Below are positions 1,616-38,612 of a stretch of DNA of 64,000 nt, piece after piece. The notes beneath the pieces are model-generated. The model was given only the letters and a program-made list of their open reading frames with translations. It was not told the origin of the DNA and ran no database searches. A program made the translations under genes and the position numbers. The DNA is taken from assembly GCA_030425425.1 (NCBI GenBank), contig JAUIAO010000009.1, positions 62,001 through 126,000 on the forward strand, in the 5' to 3' direction. The number at the start of each line of letters is the position of its first letter. Within the stretch, counting starts at the first letter, position 1. This DNA is from Bacteroidia bacterium (GTDB lineage Bacteria; Bacteroidota; Bacteroidia; Cytophagales; Cyclobacteriaceae).

Positions 1616-4054
1616 TTACTCCACTTTTCGTCTGGCTTCCGAATCATAAAAATCTATGGTAAAAACATTCCCTTCTGTATAATGATGGGATAATTCGCCA
1701 AGTAGCTGATTGGACAAACGATAGGCTAATTTTAAACCATAACCGGTTTGAATCAGCTCTGCTAGTGGTTTCGGAAGATTATCTCCTTTATCTCTGACCT
1801 GTATTTGATATTTTCCTTCCCCGGTCTGCTGACAAGTGATTTTCAAATAAAGGTTATTCCCGATAAATGCATATTTAAAACAATTGGTTACGAGCTCATT
1901 GATTGCTAATCCAAGAGGCACCATGGTGTCCACATCAAAGGCCAGGTTTCCACAACCAACATGAAGCTCGGGTTCTTCATCCAGCAGATGAATCTCCGAA
2001 ACACTGGATACCAAATCGATGATGTACTCTTCTAAAGGAATCAAGTCGAGATCATCATGCATGTAAAGTTTTTGATGTATGAGTGACATAGTAGCAACCC
2101 GTGACTTACTGTCCTCCAAAATGATGGCAGCTGCAACCGGATCATCTCCAAGATCATCTATTTCGAGTAAACTAGTAATCACCTGAAGGTTGTTTTTTAC
2201 CCGATGATGAACCTCCTTTAGCAGAGTTTCGATCTGATGATTGCGTTTTTGAATTGATTTTCCCTGTGACTCAATCTGGAGATTTTTCTGATTAAGCATC
2301 CTGTTGTTTCTATAAATCAACCCTCCAGCTATCATCGTGAAAATCAAAATTACAATTGCAATTAGCGTCCACTGACGCTGGTTTTTCAATCCGGCATCTT
2401 TCAGCTGCACATCTTTTCTCAAGAGTTCATTTTCTTGTTCTTTTTCCAGAGTTTGAAACTGAATTTCCATCGCAGCATATCTTCTATCACTTGCTTCATT
2501 AAATAGACTGTCGTTCTGTATTTTGAATAGCTGATGAAAATGCAGTGCCTTTTGGTATTTTCCAGAAGCAGCATAGATTTTTGATGCCAGTTCAAAAACA
2601 TCTCGTTTCATTCGCTGATATTGGGTTTTGATCACAAGAGGTAAGGCTTCTCCTATCAACTTTTGAGCTTCACTGTAATCTTTTAGGTTTAAACGTACTT
2701 CGGCAATTCCGGCCAGATTACGAATCTTCATACCTATGATGAATTGCTCTTCACAGATTTCTAATGATTGCTGGAAATAACCTATGCTCTCTTCGTATCT
2801 CGTGAGCTTGACGAGAATGTTGCCAATATTATAAAGTGGAATCACCCAATGTGATTTGGGATTTGATTTTTTAATTTCAAAACATTGCTGATAGGCTGAG
2901 AGTGCTTCCACAAAATCTCCTGTGGACTCATAGGTATTACCATAACTATTATAAGCTTCTGCTATACCGTTTTTATTCTCCAATCGGCGAAAAATGGCCA
3001 TCGCCTTATCGATCATTTCAATCTGCAAATCCGTCTGATTATTGTCTAGATAGACTTGATACAATCTGATATAAGAATATCCCTTATGCCATTCGCTATC
3101 TAAGGAATCAGCTACAGTTAATCTCAGCTTAGAAAGCTCAATTGATTTGGAGAAGTCGCCTTTCATTCTGAAAGCATAGGCCAAATTATCCAGCTGCTTT
3201 AATTCTTGAACCCGGTTAAAATTAGCCCGGGAAAATGCCAACATCTTGTCGTAGCTTTTTTCCGCCTCTTCATAATTTCCCAAATGATAATATACCTGCG
3301 CTACCAACGCCTCGCATCTTATTGCCAAATTTTCTTGGCCAAGATCCACACATTCATCGCTTAGAAGTAATGTACTATCCAGTGCACCTTGAAGATTCGA
3401 CGATTTATAAATATGCCAATTCTGGATCAATCTGATCTCATTCAATAAATCTTGAAAATCATCATGATGATGAGGTATTGTAAGCTGTGCACTATCAATA
3501 TATAAACGCGCACTGTCCAAACTCCAGCCGTGTATATAGTTCTCCGCAATGGAGCCATAAAGTCTTGTCAAGTTTACAGAATCCGCTCTATTCTTTGAAA
3601 TGGCTAAGGACTTATTCAACAGTGGTATGGACCTTTCATAATTGCTCAGATTATATTCCATTAAACCAAAGTCTCTATAGGTCTTAATTAATAAAAACGA
3701 ATCTTCCGTCAGTTCTAAACACTGCTGGATGAATTGTCGCATCTGATCATATTCATTATGGTTGAAAGCCATCTCAGCTTTAGCCTGATACAACTTGGCA
3801 GACGCTTCATTGTCTAGATTAGATTCATTTACTTCTTCCTCAATAACATACAAAACAGAATCAGCAATCTGAAAATCATAGTTTTTAGTGATTTGGAACA
3901 ATTCAAATTGTGCTTCCAGGTTGCCTTTTTTTGCCTCTTCAAAGACTTGTTTTGATTGAATCAAAGTGGGTACTTGTCCCATCAACAAATAAGGAATCAT
4001 CAACAATAAGTTGATAAAGAACCTTTTCGATATGGATGAAAATCCTTCTTTCAT
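1616..4054 (-). CDS. TPR-containing sensor histidine kinase (HisKA_2 type)
   Basis: This 812-residue protein starts with a hydrophobic signal segment (about residues 10-28). A long run of tetratricopeptide-like repeats follows (about 40-500), then a coiled coil, one membrane helix (about 562-581) and a second coiled coil. The HisKA_2 dimerisation domain has the phosphoacceptor HHRVKNNLQ at 616-617. The HATPase domain shows an N box (INELVTNCFKY, near 718) and a G box (RDKGDN and GYGLKL). It is probably a membrane kinase with periplasmic TPRs. Its ATG follows directly on the TAA of the GH127 gene with no gap, so the two are probably cotranscribed. No response regulator is encoded nearby in the window. 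Confidence 0.88.
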   Translation of the reverse strand: MKEGFSSISKRFFINLLLMIPYLLMGQVPTLIQSKQVFEEAKKGNLEAQFELFQITKNYDFQIADSVLYVIEEEVNESNLDNEASAKLYQAKAEMAFNHNEYDQMRQFIQQCLELTEDSFLLIKTYRDFGLMEYNLSNYERSIPLLNKSLAISKNRADSVNLTRLYGSIAENYIHGWSLDSARLYIDSAQLTIPHHHDDFQDLLNEIRLIQNWHIYKSSNLQGALDSTLLLSDECVDLGQENLAIRCEALVAQVYYHLGNYEEAEKSYDKMLAFSRANFNRVQELKQLDNLAYAFRMKGDFSKSIELSKLRLTVADSLDSEWHKGYSYIRLYQVYLDNNQTDLQIEMIDKAMAIFRRLENKNGIAEAYNSYGNTYESTGDFVEALSAYQQCFEIKKSNPKSHWVIPLYNIGNILVKLTRYEESIGYFQQSLEICEEQFIIGMKIRNLAGIAEVRLNLKDYSEAQKLIGEALPLVIKTQYQRMKRDVFELASKIYAASGKYQKALHFHQLFKIQNDSLFNEASDRRYAAMEIQFQTLEKEQENELLRKDVQLKDAGLKNQRQWTLIAIVILIFTMIAGGLIYRNNRMLNQKNLQIESQGKSIQKRNHQIETLLKEVHHRVKNNLQVITSLLEIDDLGDDPVAAAIILEDSKSRVATMSLIHQKLYMHDDLDLIPLEEYIIDLVSSVSEIHLLDEEPELHVGCGNLAFDVDTMVPLGLAINELVTNCFKYAFIGNNLYLKITCQQTGEGKYQIQVRDKGDNLPKPLAELIQTGYGLKLAYRLSNQLLGELSHHYTEGNVFTIDFYDSEARRKVE

Positions 4055-33599: not shown

Positions 33600-36500
33600 C
33601 TATCTAATGATCTGAACATAACCATTAATCGTTTGCCGATCTGCGCGTGGTTCATTGAGTTCTAACACGAAATAATATATTCCTGAAGGAAGTTCATCAC
33701 CGTCCCAATCATTCTGATAGTTCAGCTGTTCATAAACAGTCTGACCATTCCGATCAATGATCAACAATTTACTCTTGCGGTATGCTTCCACATTATCAAT
33801 CACGAAAGTCTGATTCTGCTCATCACCATTTGGTGTAAAAACATTGTATGCATATAGTTCTGGAACAAAAGAAACACAGCTCTCATTGGACCAGGAGTAG
33901 GCTTCATTCCCCATTTTTTCTATTGCCATTACTCGAAAACAATAATCAATACCTATCGGCTCTTGAAGAACTGTAAAATTGGTCATATCCGTATTTCCAA
34001 CATACGCCAGTGAATATCCATCGATTGATTGATATATTTCATAGGTAAGCACACCATTTTCCCATCCTAAATATGGGCTCCACTCTAATTTTATTAGGTT
34101 GGAATTCTCCTCAGCGGAGGCATCCAAAACCATATTATAATGCGAAACTGAAATTGTTTCTTGATCGCATCCAACATCAGATATAGAGAAATAGTATTCA
34201 TAATTGAAACTAGTATTGGTTCCATATTCATTGAATTCTTCTTGCGTTTCTTCTACATCATGAGTTTTAATACCCTCATCGCTTTTCCGGTAAATCAACC
34301 GCTCGAAATCACCATAATCATCATCACTCATCACCCAAGAAATATCCATTTTGAGCGCTTCGCTGGTGTCGCTGGTCACTTGAATGATCTCTGGTTTTGG
34401 AGGAATGATTGTGAACTCAGAAGACAAAAAAGCCCGATTGGTACAAGAGCCATACTCATGATAAGCTGTGATCTGCAATTCATGTGTACCTGGGCAAGCA
34501 TATTGAAAATGAAATTCTTCGTCTAATCTCGCGGAATCAACCATATTTTCACCATCCATGACCCATGAAACAAATTCAAAAAGTGTATCAGCTTCAATTT
34601 TTAGGGTAAAAGGTTCTCCGACCTGAAATTGTCTCTTCTCTGGAAAAAGAGAAATTATGGAATCAGGAGTACCTTCCATAATAACGATGAGTGTGTCTGA
34701 CGTTCCATCACAGATTTCATCCCCGGGCACAGATTGATGAAACCATATTTTACCCTCATTTCTATCTAACCAATTCACCATGACACTTTGCTCCCCCTGA
34801 CCTTCTATGATTTCTCCTCCTTCAACCTGCCAGTCATAAACCGACCCCTGAAAATAATAAGCAGAATATTGATGATCATCAGGACTTGCCAGACATATAG
34901 AATCTGCTCCCAGAGGTGCCTCAGGCTCTAACCGCACATTGACTTTTACGGGAAACCTCACCGAATCACCTGTACAACCAAATGCTGCTGTATTGGTGGC
35001 TAGTAAATGAATAGCTGCGTCCGAATTGGCAGATCCCCAATTTACACGAATACTATCCCGATGTGATTCTATAATTGTTCCTCCTTCCACCAACCAGTCA
35101 GTTGAAAAATCCTCTGGGTTTTCTGTGTAGTAAAGCACGTCCTCTGTATCCGGACAAACTGAACGTGGACCAAAAACAGGAAGAATTGGATTAATCACCG
35201 TCAGGTTTTGCACCTCCGTTTGTTCTCCACCACCTTCACAGCTTGTCTCTTCTGAAAACCCAGTAAGTTTCAAAGTGTATTTTCCTTCCTCTTTATATTG
35301 ATGGAATACAGGGTCCTGGGTGAATGAGGTTGTTTTAGTGCCATCCCCAAAATCCCAATCATACTGATTATAAGGTTCATCTGTTACAGGCTTGAATGAG
35401 ATCAAATCATTTTTACAAAGCTTGTTGAAAGGAATCTGTATACCATCAGAATTCCTGATTTCCACACCCAGACTCAGGTTGGAAAGATTGGCACCTGCTG
35501 AATAGCCAAATGATTCATTATCTCCGTAACCATATACATAGGCAATAAAACCATGCGGAGATTTAAGGGTGTGATTACCTCCGTCGATGGATATTCGGGC
35601 AAAACTGTAAACAGAATTCCCCGGTACAACTTCAAAATAATTCTGAATAACCTGATCATCTAACAACAGGTCTTCTAAACCAACTGTTGGTGCAATGACA
35701 TTTAATGAAAAAATAGTCGTAGAAACGATATCTGGTGCATTAAACGTAATTTCAGTGAGCAACTGCTCATTCGGACTCAAAACCACAAAAAACGGGTCTG
35801 CAGTGGTTCCATCACATCCTTGAGTGCGACTAAACTGCCCTACTGTAATTGGCTTATCAGAAGTAATGATATTTTCGTTATCCAAACGTCTTTGTATCCA
35901 TTCATTTGCATCCAGATTGACCGTTTCCCCTGCAAGATTGACTGCAGTATTGTCTTCTGCTGCCAGTACTTTCACCTCATCACCTCCTTCTCTCGGTTCA
36001 TAGCTCACTGTGATATATTCTTTACCCCAGGTTTTGATTGGATACATCTGTGCAAACAGATGATCCATACCGCTTTGCACTTCACAGAGACCGACCATTG
36101 TACATTGGTTACCTCCAAATACAGCAATACTAGTACAGCTATTATTCCCGCTTATTCTTGCTGTGACTTTGGTACCTGTGAGGTCACCTCGTGCCATAAG
36201 TTGGTATGTTTCACCTTGATTTAGAGTTACACTTAATGTCTCACCTGGCTGATGATCATTTTCAGTCAAAACAGAAGGAATGATATCTACAATGGTCTGA
36301 TCCTCAGTAGCGACTATGAGTAATTCTGAATCGGAAAAATTATCATCTTGCTTATTCCCAGTTTCCCAATGAGACATCACGATGTATTCATTGCTTAATG
36401 AGTAAGTCGGTAGAATACCTGTTTCATCCGCACTGAACTCTCGCTTATTAATAGCAAAAACACTGATTTCTTTTTCGGCCGTTAGATGAATGCCTTTGTT

Positions 36501-36824
36501 ACCGATTCCACTCTCATCACCGGCCATGGCTTCCTGGGTATTCAAGCTGATGCGGGTTGCTAATCCAGGTACTACCTCAAAGTTTACAGGTTGAAAACCG
36601 CTTAAGTTGGGTATTGATAATACACCCTGAGTAGTATCAACCGCACTTACATAAACTTCAAGGCTTATTGGTACATCTGCAGGATCTCTGTCCCAATTAT
36701 TCATAAAACCAAACCAGAAATCTTTTCCTTCGGTGGATAGATTTTGTCCTATCGTCTGGTTATTCACCATTAACTCAATCAGGATAGAGATCAGAATTAT
36801 GAAAAAATTTCTCATTGAAATCAC
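33600..36824 (-). CDS. Large secreted protein: IgGFc-binding-like domain, PKD domain, gliding-type C-terminus
   Basis: The 1074-residue protein has a signal peptide and an N-terminal ~430-residue region rich in beta strands that resembles the IgGFc_binding domain (GKDFWFGFMNN, NLSGFQPVNFEVVPG). A PKD domain follows (YDWDFGDGT, near residue 480), then several Ig/fibronectin-like modules. The C-terminal gliding-motility-associated domain begins at NVFTPNGDEQNQTFVIDN and ends DELPSGIYYFVLEL. That C-terminus is a type IX secretion signal (CHU_C type), so the protein is probably exported to the cell surface. Adhesion or surface attachment is the family guess; no enzyme motif is seen. An ATG three codons later is also possible. 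The gene stands alone. Confidence 0.8.
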   Translation of the reverse strand: MISMRNFFIILISILIELMVNNQTIGQNLSTEGKDFWFGFMNNWDRDPADVPISLEVYVSAVDTTQGVLSIPNLSGFQPVNFEVVPGLATRISLNTQEAMAGDESGIGNKGIHLTAEKEISVFAINKREFSADETGILPTYSLSNEYIVMSHWETGNKQDDNFSDSELLIVATEDQTIVDIIPSVLTENDHQPGETLSVTLNQGETYQLMARGDLTGTKVTARISGNNSCTSIAVFGGNQCTMVGLCEVQSGMDHLFAQMYPIKTWGKEYITVSYEPREGGDEVKVLAAEDNTAVNLAGETVNLDANEWIQRRLDNENIITSDKPITVGQFSRTQGCDGTTADPFFVVLSPNEQLLTEITFNAPDIVSTTIFSLNVIAPTVGLEDLLLDDQVIQNYFEVVPGNSVYSFARISIDGGNHTLKSPHGFIAYVYGYGDNESFGYSAGANLSNLSLGVEIRNSDGIQIPFNKLCKNDLISFKPVTDEPYNQYDWDFGDGTKTTSFTQDPVFHQYKEEGKYTLKLTGFSEETSCEGGGEQTEVQNLTVINPILPVFGPRSVCPDTEDVLYYTENPEDFSTDWLVEGGTIIESHRDSIRVNWGSANSDAAIHLLATNTAAFGCTGDSVRFPVKVNVRLEPEAPLGADSICLASPDDHQYSAYYFQGSVYDWQVEGGEIIEGQGEQSVMVNWLDRNEGKIWFHQSVPGDEICDGTSDTLIVIMEGTPDSIISLFPEKRQFQVGEPFTLKIEADTLFEFVSWVMDGENMVDSARLDEEFHFQYACPGTHELQITAYHEYGSCTNRAFLSSEFTIIPPKPEIIQVTSDTSEALKMDISWVMSDDDYGDFERLIYRKSDEGIKTHDVEETQEEFNEYGTNTSFNYEYYFSISDVGCDQETISVSHYNMVLDASAEENSNLIKLEWSPYLGWENGVLTYEIYQSIDGYSLAYVGNTDMTNFTVLQEPIGIDYCFRVMAIEKMGNEAYSWSNESCVSFVPELYAYNVFTPNGDEQNQTFVIDNVEAYRKSKLLIIDRNGQTVYEQLNYQNDWDGDELPSGIYYFVLELNEPRADRQTINGYVQIIR

Positions 36825-37120: not shown

Positions 37121-38389
37121 TTATACTTTCTCCTTGATAATGAACCTGGTACCTTGCTCATCACTTAATATTTCCAATTCACCATTCATGGCATTTACAA
37201 ATGTATCTATGAGCATCATACCAAAGCTACCCTGATTGATCGATCTGATATCGAAACCTGAGCCATTATCTCCAATCTCTATTAATCCACCATCTTCAGA
37301 AATCTGAATAAAAAAATGATTTTCCCTCCCTATTTTAAAAGCATGCTTGGCACTGTTCATGTAAATTTCGGAGATCACCAAACCAAAATTCAATGCATTG
37401 TCTGGAAGAAAAGTGATTTTTTCATTGATATCAATTCTGGTATTTACATCCAAATCATCATCGATAACAGAACTCAAGGAATTGATAATTTCATAAACGA
37501 AATGCTTAATATTTACTTTTTCTCCGACATCAGATTGAAGAAGTTTATCATGCAGTTTTGAGATGGACAAAATTCGCATTGCCACTGGCTTAATGGATCG
37601 ACTGGTTTCTGGAGGCAAAGATCTTAGCCTCAAATCCAGCATATTTAAGATCACCTGAAGATTATTTTTAATTCGATGGTGAGTTTCTACAAACATCTGT
37701 TTGTTCAAGTCCAGTTGATTTTTCAACTCAAGCTCATACTTCTTACGGGTTTCTATTTCCAGCGCCAGCTGTTTATTGACCTCATTTAGTTCCTGGGTCC
37801 GAACCTCCACTAAGCGCTTCAATTCTTCAGGGCCTTTTAATGACAATAATCTACCTGATTCTATCACAGCAGCCACCAATGTACTGAAACTTATAGCAGC
37901 TGTAAAAACTTTGACAAGTATGAGCAAATTGTAAACAGGGTACCAAAAAATGATGGCATCTAGTAGATGTGTGATTCCACAGAAAAGAATGAAAAAAGAA
38001 AACAGCCACAGCAAAACTCGAAAAGGAATATATTTTGATTTCCTTCTTTGAAGCACGAATATCAAATAAGATGGAATACCAAAATATGAAAGAAAAGTGA
38101 TGATATCAGCGATCACAAAAGTCCAGCCTTCGAAACCAGTCCAGCTTCCACAATACCATCTCGCCGGTCTGCCAGAGACTTTGAGAAGATTACTAAAAAA
38201 ACTATTGAGTTCACCTAATGGGCTGCCTGGAATGGGTGGTTTAGAAACACATAAACCACTAAAACAAACAGTATCATTGGGATAAAAAATGGTCAATACT
38301 AATCCGCTACCAAGAATAAGCAGAATCAATAGTAAAGTTATAAGAAACGGTACGCGTAGTTTTAATGGAGAAAAGAATTCTCGTGTCAT
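37121..38389 (-). CDS. Ethylene-receptor-type sensor histidine kinase
   Basis: The 422-residue protein has a first membrane helix (~13-36), a short extracytoplasmic segment with Cys42, Cys47 and Cys80, three more helices (~90-178), a coiled coil (~185-230), and HisKA_2/HATPase domains (ETHHRIKNNLQVILNM, His237-238). The three-helix block matches the ethylene-binding domain of plant ETR1: Asp95, Tyr102, Ile105 and Pro106 have the same spacing as ETR1 Asp25, Tyr32, Ile35 and Pro36. Cys137 and His141 (FCGITHL) match the copper ligands Cys65 and His69. RWYCGSWTGFEGW before helix 2 resembles the cyanobacterial relative. Copper-dependent ethylene or small-molecule sensing is inferred. No response regulator lies nearby. 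Confidence 0.82.
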   Translation of the reverse strand: MTREFFSPLKLRVPFLITLLLILLILGSGLVLTIFYPNDTVCFSGLCVSKPPIPGSPLGELNSFFSNLLKVSGRPARWYCGSWTGFEGWTFVIADIITFLSYFGIPSYLIFVLQRRKSKYIPFRVLLWLFSFFILFCGITHLLDAIIFWYPVYNLLILVKVFTAAISFSTLVAAVIESGRLLSLKGPEELKRLVEVRTQELNEVNKQLALEIETRKKYELELKNQLDLNKQMFVETHHRIKNNLQVILNMLDLRLRSLPPETSRSIKPVAMRILSISKLHDKLLQSDVGEKVNIKHFVYEIINSLSSVIDDDLDVNTRIDINEKITFLPDNALNFGLVISEIYMNSAKHAFKIGRENHFFIQISEDGGLIEIGDNGSGFDIRSINQGSFGMMLIDTFVNAMNGELEILSDEQGTRFIIKEKV

Positions 38390-38456
38390 AGCTGGGTAAT
38401 TAGTTGTAGGTAATTGTAAACTAATGACTAAACCCTACGAATACAAAAAATATAAA

Positions 38457-38481
38457 ACCTTCTCCCGAAACGAGAGAAGGT
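38457..38481 (-). terminator. Intrinsic terminator of the korAB operon
   Basis: ACCTTCTC at 38457-38464 and GAGAAGGT at 38474-38481 form an eight-base hairpin. On the minus strand a T-rich run follows. It lies about 130 bases after the korB stop and upstream of the kinase, so it probably ends the korAB transcript. Confidence 0.7.
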
Positions 38482-38612
38482 CAATAAACAAGTGTTATGA
38501 ATTAGACTTGAACATTCCATTCAAAAAAATGTCCTAAATGGAGAGAATGAAATGTTCAAGAAAATCTCATGAGCCATAGAAAACCTACAACTCACAAAAC
38601 GAACTTGTAATG

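Follow-up and report, generated by a model that had tools for sequence, protein, structure and literature searches.

The gene at positions 37121-38389 on the minus strand of the window (the whole stretch of 64,000 nt that was analysed) encodes a 422-aa membrane histidine kinase, P0001, which combines a domain of the ethylene-binding type (EBD) with a HisKA_2 kinase. P0001 most likely works as a Cu(I)-dependent sensor of the ethylene type, from the bacterial ethylene-receptor family but with a swapped kinase; we give this reading a probability of roughly 0.6. ORF reading and translation revealed an intact ORF with an ATG start on the minus strand, and a plus-strand gene in this interval was ruled out by many stops in that frame. 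The following features were assigned:

37121-38389, minus strand: whole gene, P0001, 422-aa membrane histidine kinase (EBD, HisKA_2, HATPase_c), from ORF, sequence and Pfam
38288-38356, minus strand: extra N-terminal hydrophobic helix, residues 12-34, from model helix and sequence; membrane position presumed
38138-38287, minus strand: outer cap, residues 35-84, with C42, C47 and C80-x2-W83, from the alignment; periplasmic side presumed
37841-38137, minus strand: ethylene-binding-type three-helix membrane domain (Pfam ETR1_N 88-175), from Pfam and model helices 85-115, 124-147 and 153-183
38105-38107, minus strand: D95, equivalent to ETR1 D25, from alignments
37967-37981, minus strand: C137-x3-H141, predicted Cu(I) ligands, equivalent to ETR1 C65/H69, from alignments
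37910-37912, minus strand: K160, equivalent to ETR1 K91 and AzoEtr1 K98, from the ETR1 alignment and the H+19 spacing quoted for AzoEtr1
37703-37831, minus strand: predicted long signalling helix 187-229, from membrane domain to kinase, from the model
37469-37687, minus strand: HisKA_2 phospho-acceptor domain 235-307, H-box THHRIKNNL, from Pfam
37136-37384, minus strand: HATPase_c 336-418, from Pfam
38456-38482, minus strand: terminator-like stem-loop (12 pairs, 6 GC) and T run, between the korB-like gene and the P0001 gene

P0001 belongs to the ethylene-receptor family. Residues 88-175 matched the Pfam profile ETR1_N (PF25487) at 1.6e-23, with 83.2 bits versus a cut-off of 27. This was the only ETR1_N match in a profile search of the genome (5.85 Mb), and none of 14 control genomes gave a match. 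A sequence-only reading had proposed an ethylene-type membrane domain for this kinase and had named the lack of a significant profile match as evidence against it; the search was run, and the match lay 56 bits above the cut-off. The junction of the EBD to HisKA_2 (PF07568), also proposed there, was borne out by a match of residues 235-307 (6.3e-15, 55.5 bits versus a cut-off of 22.3). Residues 336-418 matched HATPase_c at 4.1e-6, with 27.6 bits being barely above the cut-off of 26.4. From what is known of the family, the phospho-acceptor in the H-box is presumably H238. P0001 showed no match to PAS.

For comparison with ETR1 we used the first 133 residues of the Arabidopsis protein, which scored 117 bits against ETR1_N. 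We take D25, Y32, I35, P36, I62, C65 and H69 to be its seven ethylene-binding residues. D25, Y32, I35 and P36 align to D95, Y102, I105 and P106 with a constant offset of 70, which is the spacing that had been noticed from the sequence alone. I62, C65 and H69 align to I134, C137 and H141 with an offset of 72, so that P0001 has two extra residues in the loop between helices 1 and 2; the earlier assignment of Cys137 and His141 to ETR1 Cys65 and His69, with just this insertion, was thus correct. The signalling lysine of ETR1, K91, aligns to K160. This residue, I134 and the minus strand had not been part of the sequence-only reading. Published work, cited here and below from the accessible parts of the papers, names D25, I35, P36, I62, C65 and H69 of ETR1, while Y32 is not among the residues named there (PMC11819568, PMC6586836). 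ETR1 mutants in C65 or D25 lose ethylene binding (PMC11819568), and exchange of Asp25 to Asn lowers the ethylene affinity about 100-fold (PMC13012798).

Homology speaks strongly for P0001 being a putative ethylene-type sensor that depends on copper, since its bacterial relative AzoEtr1 is reported to bind ethylene (PMC11819568). In such a sensor, Cu(I) would be held by C137 and H141 of the three-helix domain, D95 and K160 would connect the copper site to the signalling helix, and ethylene or a similar small pi-ligand would reach the copper from the membrane. Ligand binding would then alter the HisKA_2/HATPase_c kinase activity (H238), in a presumed dimer and in a direction that is likewise presumed, and the phosphate may be passed to a response regulator whose gene lies in another part of the genome. 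Among the other proteins of the genome is a copper-type ATPase (43% over 732 query residues), which bears CPC and GMxCxxC motifs.

A structure model of P0001 had a mean pLDDT of 84 and a pTM of 0.67, with helices at residues 12-34, 57-66, 85-115, 124-147, 153-183 and 187-229. The three EBD helices were confident, with block pLDDT values of 87-98 from residue 91 onward, and residues 1-60 were of low to middling confidence. From the N-terminus, the predicted layout runs through the extra helix and the cap to the three-helix domain and then to the long signalling helix. The topology is presumed, and a C47-C80 or C80-C80' disulphide may form. The outer cap could be a sign of another ligand. No solved structure related to the membrane domain was found by sequence, including phmmer against the PDB, or by Foldseek at E ≤ 0.001. 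Among viral folds, the unnamed protein A0A8E4UZR7 of BFVD was alone in matching at E ≤ 0.001 (7.2e-5), with a probability of 1.00, a TM-score of 0.45 and 23% identity.

Relatives were collected by scanning GTDB for the motif [WFR]P[AP]RWxCGxW. At least 190 stretches encode relatives, and 80 of these were kept, a sample that leans to this motif clade. By title, 55 of them are from Bacteroidota (Fulvivirga, Hymenobacter, Mucilaginibacter, Dyadobacter and others), 16 from Planctomycetota and 9 from other or unnamed organisms. A sample spread across the phylum contained 21 genomes out of 395, from 14 of 171 genera, with an ETR1_N match above the cut-off. The range of plants and some cyanobacteria given in the sequence-only reading is too narrow, since the family is spread widely across Bacteroidota and beyond, and proteobacterial members have been published (PMC11819568, PMC7700396). 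Varied outputs of bacterial EBD kinases are likewise on record in these papers.

The EBD alignment comprised 100 rows (the window protein, 80 GTDB loci and 19 sequences from further genomes), with 24-42% identity to P0001. The Tyr and the His were present in all 100 rows, C137, I105 and I134 in 99 each and the Pro in 98. At the place of D25, 91 rows have D, 5 have S (L089, L109, L124, L126, L139) and 4 have N (L137, L042, L030, L035); in these S and N rows a low affinity or a different ligand might naturally be looked for. The lysine column was more variable, with K in 45 rows, R in 43, L in 10 and S and D in one each. Ser replaces the copper-ligand Cys in a single row (L135:4737-5252). Outside the classical site, C80 and W83 were each found in 99 of the 100 rows, C47 in 31 of the 32 rows having a residue there and C42 in the window protein alone, all of this in the cap part, where the alignment is loose.

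The EBD tree (100 rows, 124 columns, midpoint root) left many forks unresolved. It split the motif clade (89 rows) from the remaining 11 rows with support of 100/100; a form of MPHGxCYxW is present in 10 of these 11. P0001 groups with the same-genus receptors L006, L012, L016 and L125 (the latter on the contig of L062) at 95/82; its end branch is long (1.26), and the tree program called its placement unsure. The EBD of P0001 also had the second lowest score of the 21 matching genomes, 86.7 bits compared to 99-131 in 19 of the 20 others and 102-105 in the four same-genus receptors. The two-residue loop insertion, beside the long branch and the low profile score, means that the function may have drifted. 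Four of five same-genus genomes had an EBD match (G001, G003, G004, G005); for the fifth, G002, the matches listed included kinase matches only and no EBD.

Among described systems, AzoEtr1 of Azospirillum brasilense is similar to P0001 in its three-helix EBD with D, C, H and K and in its histidine kinase output. According to its published description (D35/C75/H79/K98; PMC11819568), the C-to-H distance of 4 and the H-to-K distance of 19 are equal in both proteins, and the D-to-C distance is 42 in P0001 versus 40 in AzoEtr1. AzoEtr1 includes a PAS domain, and its stop codon is overlapped by a response regulator gene (PMC11819568), whereas P0001 has HisKA_2, no PAS match, no regulator nearby and an extra N-terminal helix with a cap. 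Plant ETR1, judged by its first 133 residues, shares the seven ethylene-binding residues with P0001; unlike ETR1 and SynEtr1, the latter compared by its published description, P0001 has no GAF domain and carries HisKA_2 instead. The same-genus receptors (L006/L061, L012/L063, L016/L065, L125/L062) share the outer cap with a cysteine, the PARWxCGxW motif and the EBD, but are EBD-PAS-HisKA-HATPase_c proteins of 671-814 aa, and a single-domain response regulator follows in three of the four cases (next door in L061, L062 and L065, absent at L063).

In one group of relatives, a CPC-type P-type copper ATPase is followed in one ORF by an EBD, a PAS domain and a histidine kinase. Such ORFs were seen in three genomes of two families, at L067:5440-10035 (plus strand), L068:8392-12987 (minus strand) and L174:247-3657 (minus strand). 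By Pfam, the proteins of L067 and L068 (1532 aa each) consist of HMA, E1-E2_ATPase, Hydrolase, ETR1_N, PAS, HisKA and HATPase_c. L174 has the same order from E1-E2_ATPase on, with 1137 aa in view and the N-terminus beyond the examined stretch. A search of 197 genomes of that class for the whole junction returned, among the matches listed, G240 itself and G470 (58%), and the third fusion genome, G428, came from the phylum-wide spread sample. By eye, cytochrome bd-like genes lie ahead of the fusion ORF in L067 and L068, and response-regulator-like genes come after it. Copper genes beside EBD genes were not supported as a rule: in 172 loci, scanned with one pattern in ATG-started ORFs, the CPC motif occurred only in the fusion ORFs L035/L067 and L037/L068. 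The plant copper ATPase RAN1 interacts with ETR1 (PMC6656775), which makes the fusion a natural parallel tying an EBD to copper.

A Cu(I)-based sensor of something else, either copper itself or one of the Cu(I)-binding molecules CO, acetylene, isoprene or NO, is the strongest competitor of the ethylene-type reading, although we regard it as rather unlikely. Few residues of the alignment are as constant as the copper ligands, three genomes carry an EBD fused to a copper-type ATPase, and the adjoining cytochrome bd-like genes in two of them (by eye) point in the same direction. To our knowledge, the named hosts of relatives are mostly not plant symbionts, which also speaks for another ligand. 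The fused EBD in L035/L067 has N at the place of D25 and D at the place of the lysine, which counts against an ethylene role of the fusion. On the other hand, P0001 and its relatives have also kept those residues of the ETR1 site that are not copper ligands (Y, I, P and I), and these would be unneeded for copper sensing alone. Furthermore, the bacterial homologs reported to act respond to ethylene (PMC11819568, PMC6682694), and AzoEtr1 binds it (PMC11819568).

The kinase part distinguishes P0001 from its motif clade. Pfam domains were assigned at E ≤ 0.001 to 78 proteins, the window protein and 77 of the 80 relatives, the three above 900 aa being excluded. ETR1_N was found in all 78, HATPase_c in 63, HisKA in 45, a receiver domain in 10 and HisKA_2 in a single one, which was P0001. 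At least 17 of the other proteins have HATPase_c together with no match to HisKA or HisKA_2. The pairing of EBD and HisKA_2 is not unique to the window, since the EBD-joined kinase of L165 (5905-7017, on an IMG/VR contig of 279 kb) matched both HWE_HK (9.8e-27) and HisKA_2 (6.6e-9) in Pfam. L165 differs from P0001 in its other form of EBD (NPHGLCLLWRP), the stronger match to HWE_HK than to HisKA_2 and its length of 371 aa. The genome of P0001 encodes further HisKA_2-class kinases, seen as kinase-half matches and including a TPR-HisKA_2 kinase at window 1616-4054, which has the same phospho-acceptor and ATPase classes but TPR repeats as the sensor and no EBD.

P0001 is an orphan kinase. The contig scan found no response regulator within about 38 kb, and the nearest receiver matches on the contig were at C36:60460 and C36:36648; the genome as a whole gave 112 receiver matches. 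The sequence-only reading had stated that the neighboring genes do not reveal the output, and indeed none of them does; no ethylene- or plant-related genes were noticed among the neighbors examined. An adjacent 1074-aa protein (window 33600-36824, minus strand) has a CHU_C type IX secretion domain besides IgGFc_binding and PKD domains. That the P0001 gene forms a conserved operon with the neighboring korAB-like genes seems unlikely, as the terminator-like site stands between them; because this site follows the korB-like gene, the P0001 gene is probably its own transcription unit (2 terminator-like sites were found versus 0.8 expected in shuffles). At E ≤ 1e-50, korB matches occurred in 7 of 19 genomes, including its own and one other same-genus genome.

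Orphans are not rare in the family. A receiver domain was present within the protein in 13 of the 80 relatives, and 40 had a receiver on the same strand ≤2.5 kb downstream, 31 of these within ≤400 nt. Taken together, 52 of the 80 have a fused or nearby (≤2.5 kb) receiver, and 28 have neither, two of them for lack of room; the window likewise has none. The receiver profile used for these counts was built from 11 receivers, mostly adjoining EBD genes, and leans to that kind, and the extra loci L064 and L079, which gave no motif match, were excluded. The genus relatives thus have PAS-HisKA receptors, mostly with a regulator, and P0001 has a HisKA_2 kinase and no such neighbor. Most simply, a PAS-HisKA receptor at the level of the genus would have lost its partner and become joined to a HisKA_2 kinase, with the order of events being presumed.

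Alternatively, P0001 may be a decaying or re-purposed receptor, whose membrane domain mostly serves to anchor or dimerise the HisKA_2 kinase and binds no ligand. The long branch, the low profile score and the missing neighboring regulator, which three of the four same-genus relatives have, would agree with this. However, none of the eight functional positions has been lost in spite of the divergence, the ORF and the kinase domains are intact, and orphan status is weak evidence of decay, since 28 of the 80 relatives also have no detected nearby regulator. We therefore judge decay to be improbable. Chance resemblance among hydrophobic helices, the kind of spurious match seen as transporter noise when P0001 was searched against the PDB with phmmer, is refuted by the curated profile match 56 bits above the cut-off, the 14 negative control genomes and polar residues that are invariant or nearly so in 100 homologs, and has practically no probability left.

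The EBD occurs in further arrangements. In eight loci from Cyclobacteriaceae to Flavobacteriaceae (L052, L053, L110, L116, L127, L143, L148, L159), a stand-alone EBD of 159-207 aa is followed by a separate gene of 385-500 aa and a single-domain response regulator, which makes up a split operon of the ethylene-receptor kind. Pfam supports the kinase in L116 and L127 and the regulator in L116; the others were assigned by a home-made profile and by likeness. In L092, L113, L118, L133 and L054 an EBD is followed by a gene of 259-479 aa and no regulator was detected. EBDs above the Pfam cut-off were also seen in the 8 IMG/VR loci examined out of 12 found (L166, L172, L168, L170, L171, L164, L161, L165); six of these EBD proteins are 122-269 aa long with no kinase match, and L161 and L165 have kinase domains. 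By PHROGs, the EBD at L166:5980-6351 lies between genes for the terminase large subunit and the portal, and the EBD at L172:5968-6333 has a terminase upstream. No named phage relative of the L166 EBD was found in INPHARED at E ≤ 1e-3.

For the Cu(I) ethylene-type sensor kinase proposed here, the novelty of the window protein itself is modest and lies in the HisKA_2 output in this clade, the outer cap and the orphan status, by which it differs from the known receptors. Bacterial ethylene receptors have been described experimentally from Synechocystis, Geitlerinema and Azospirillum (PMC11819568, PMC6682694). EBDs in Bacteroidota, fusions of EBD and copper ATPase, split EBD operons and phage EBDs were not found in titles and opening parts of abstracts of the open-licence literature. 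As a tentative view, which we hold with less than even confidence, the Cu(I) EBD may serve Bacteroidota and Planctomycetota as a general gas-sensor module that recombines freely, as suggested by the split operons, the copper-ATPase fusions, the phage-like contigs and the re-wiring to HisKA_2 behind a cysteine-bearing cap. The fused copper ATPase is of the kind thought to load the plant receptor (cf. RAN1, PMC6656775); if this view is true, bacteria would have a counterpart to the loading of ethylene receptors with copper by a dedicated P1B ATPase. The copper-ATPase fusions would offer a handle on how copper reaches the sensor, and the re-wired kinase of P0001 a handle on how the sensor couples to different kinases. 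The large conserved branch in Bacteroidota and Planctomycetota raises the question of what free-living bacteria would learn from ethylene or from another copper ligand.
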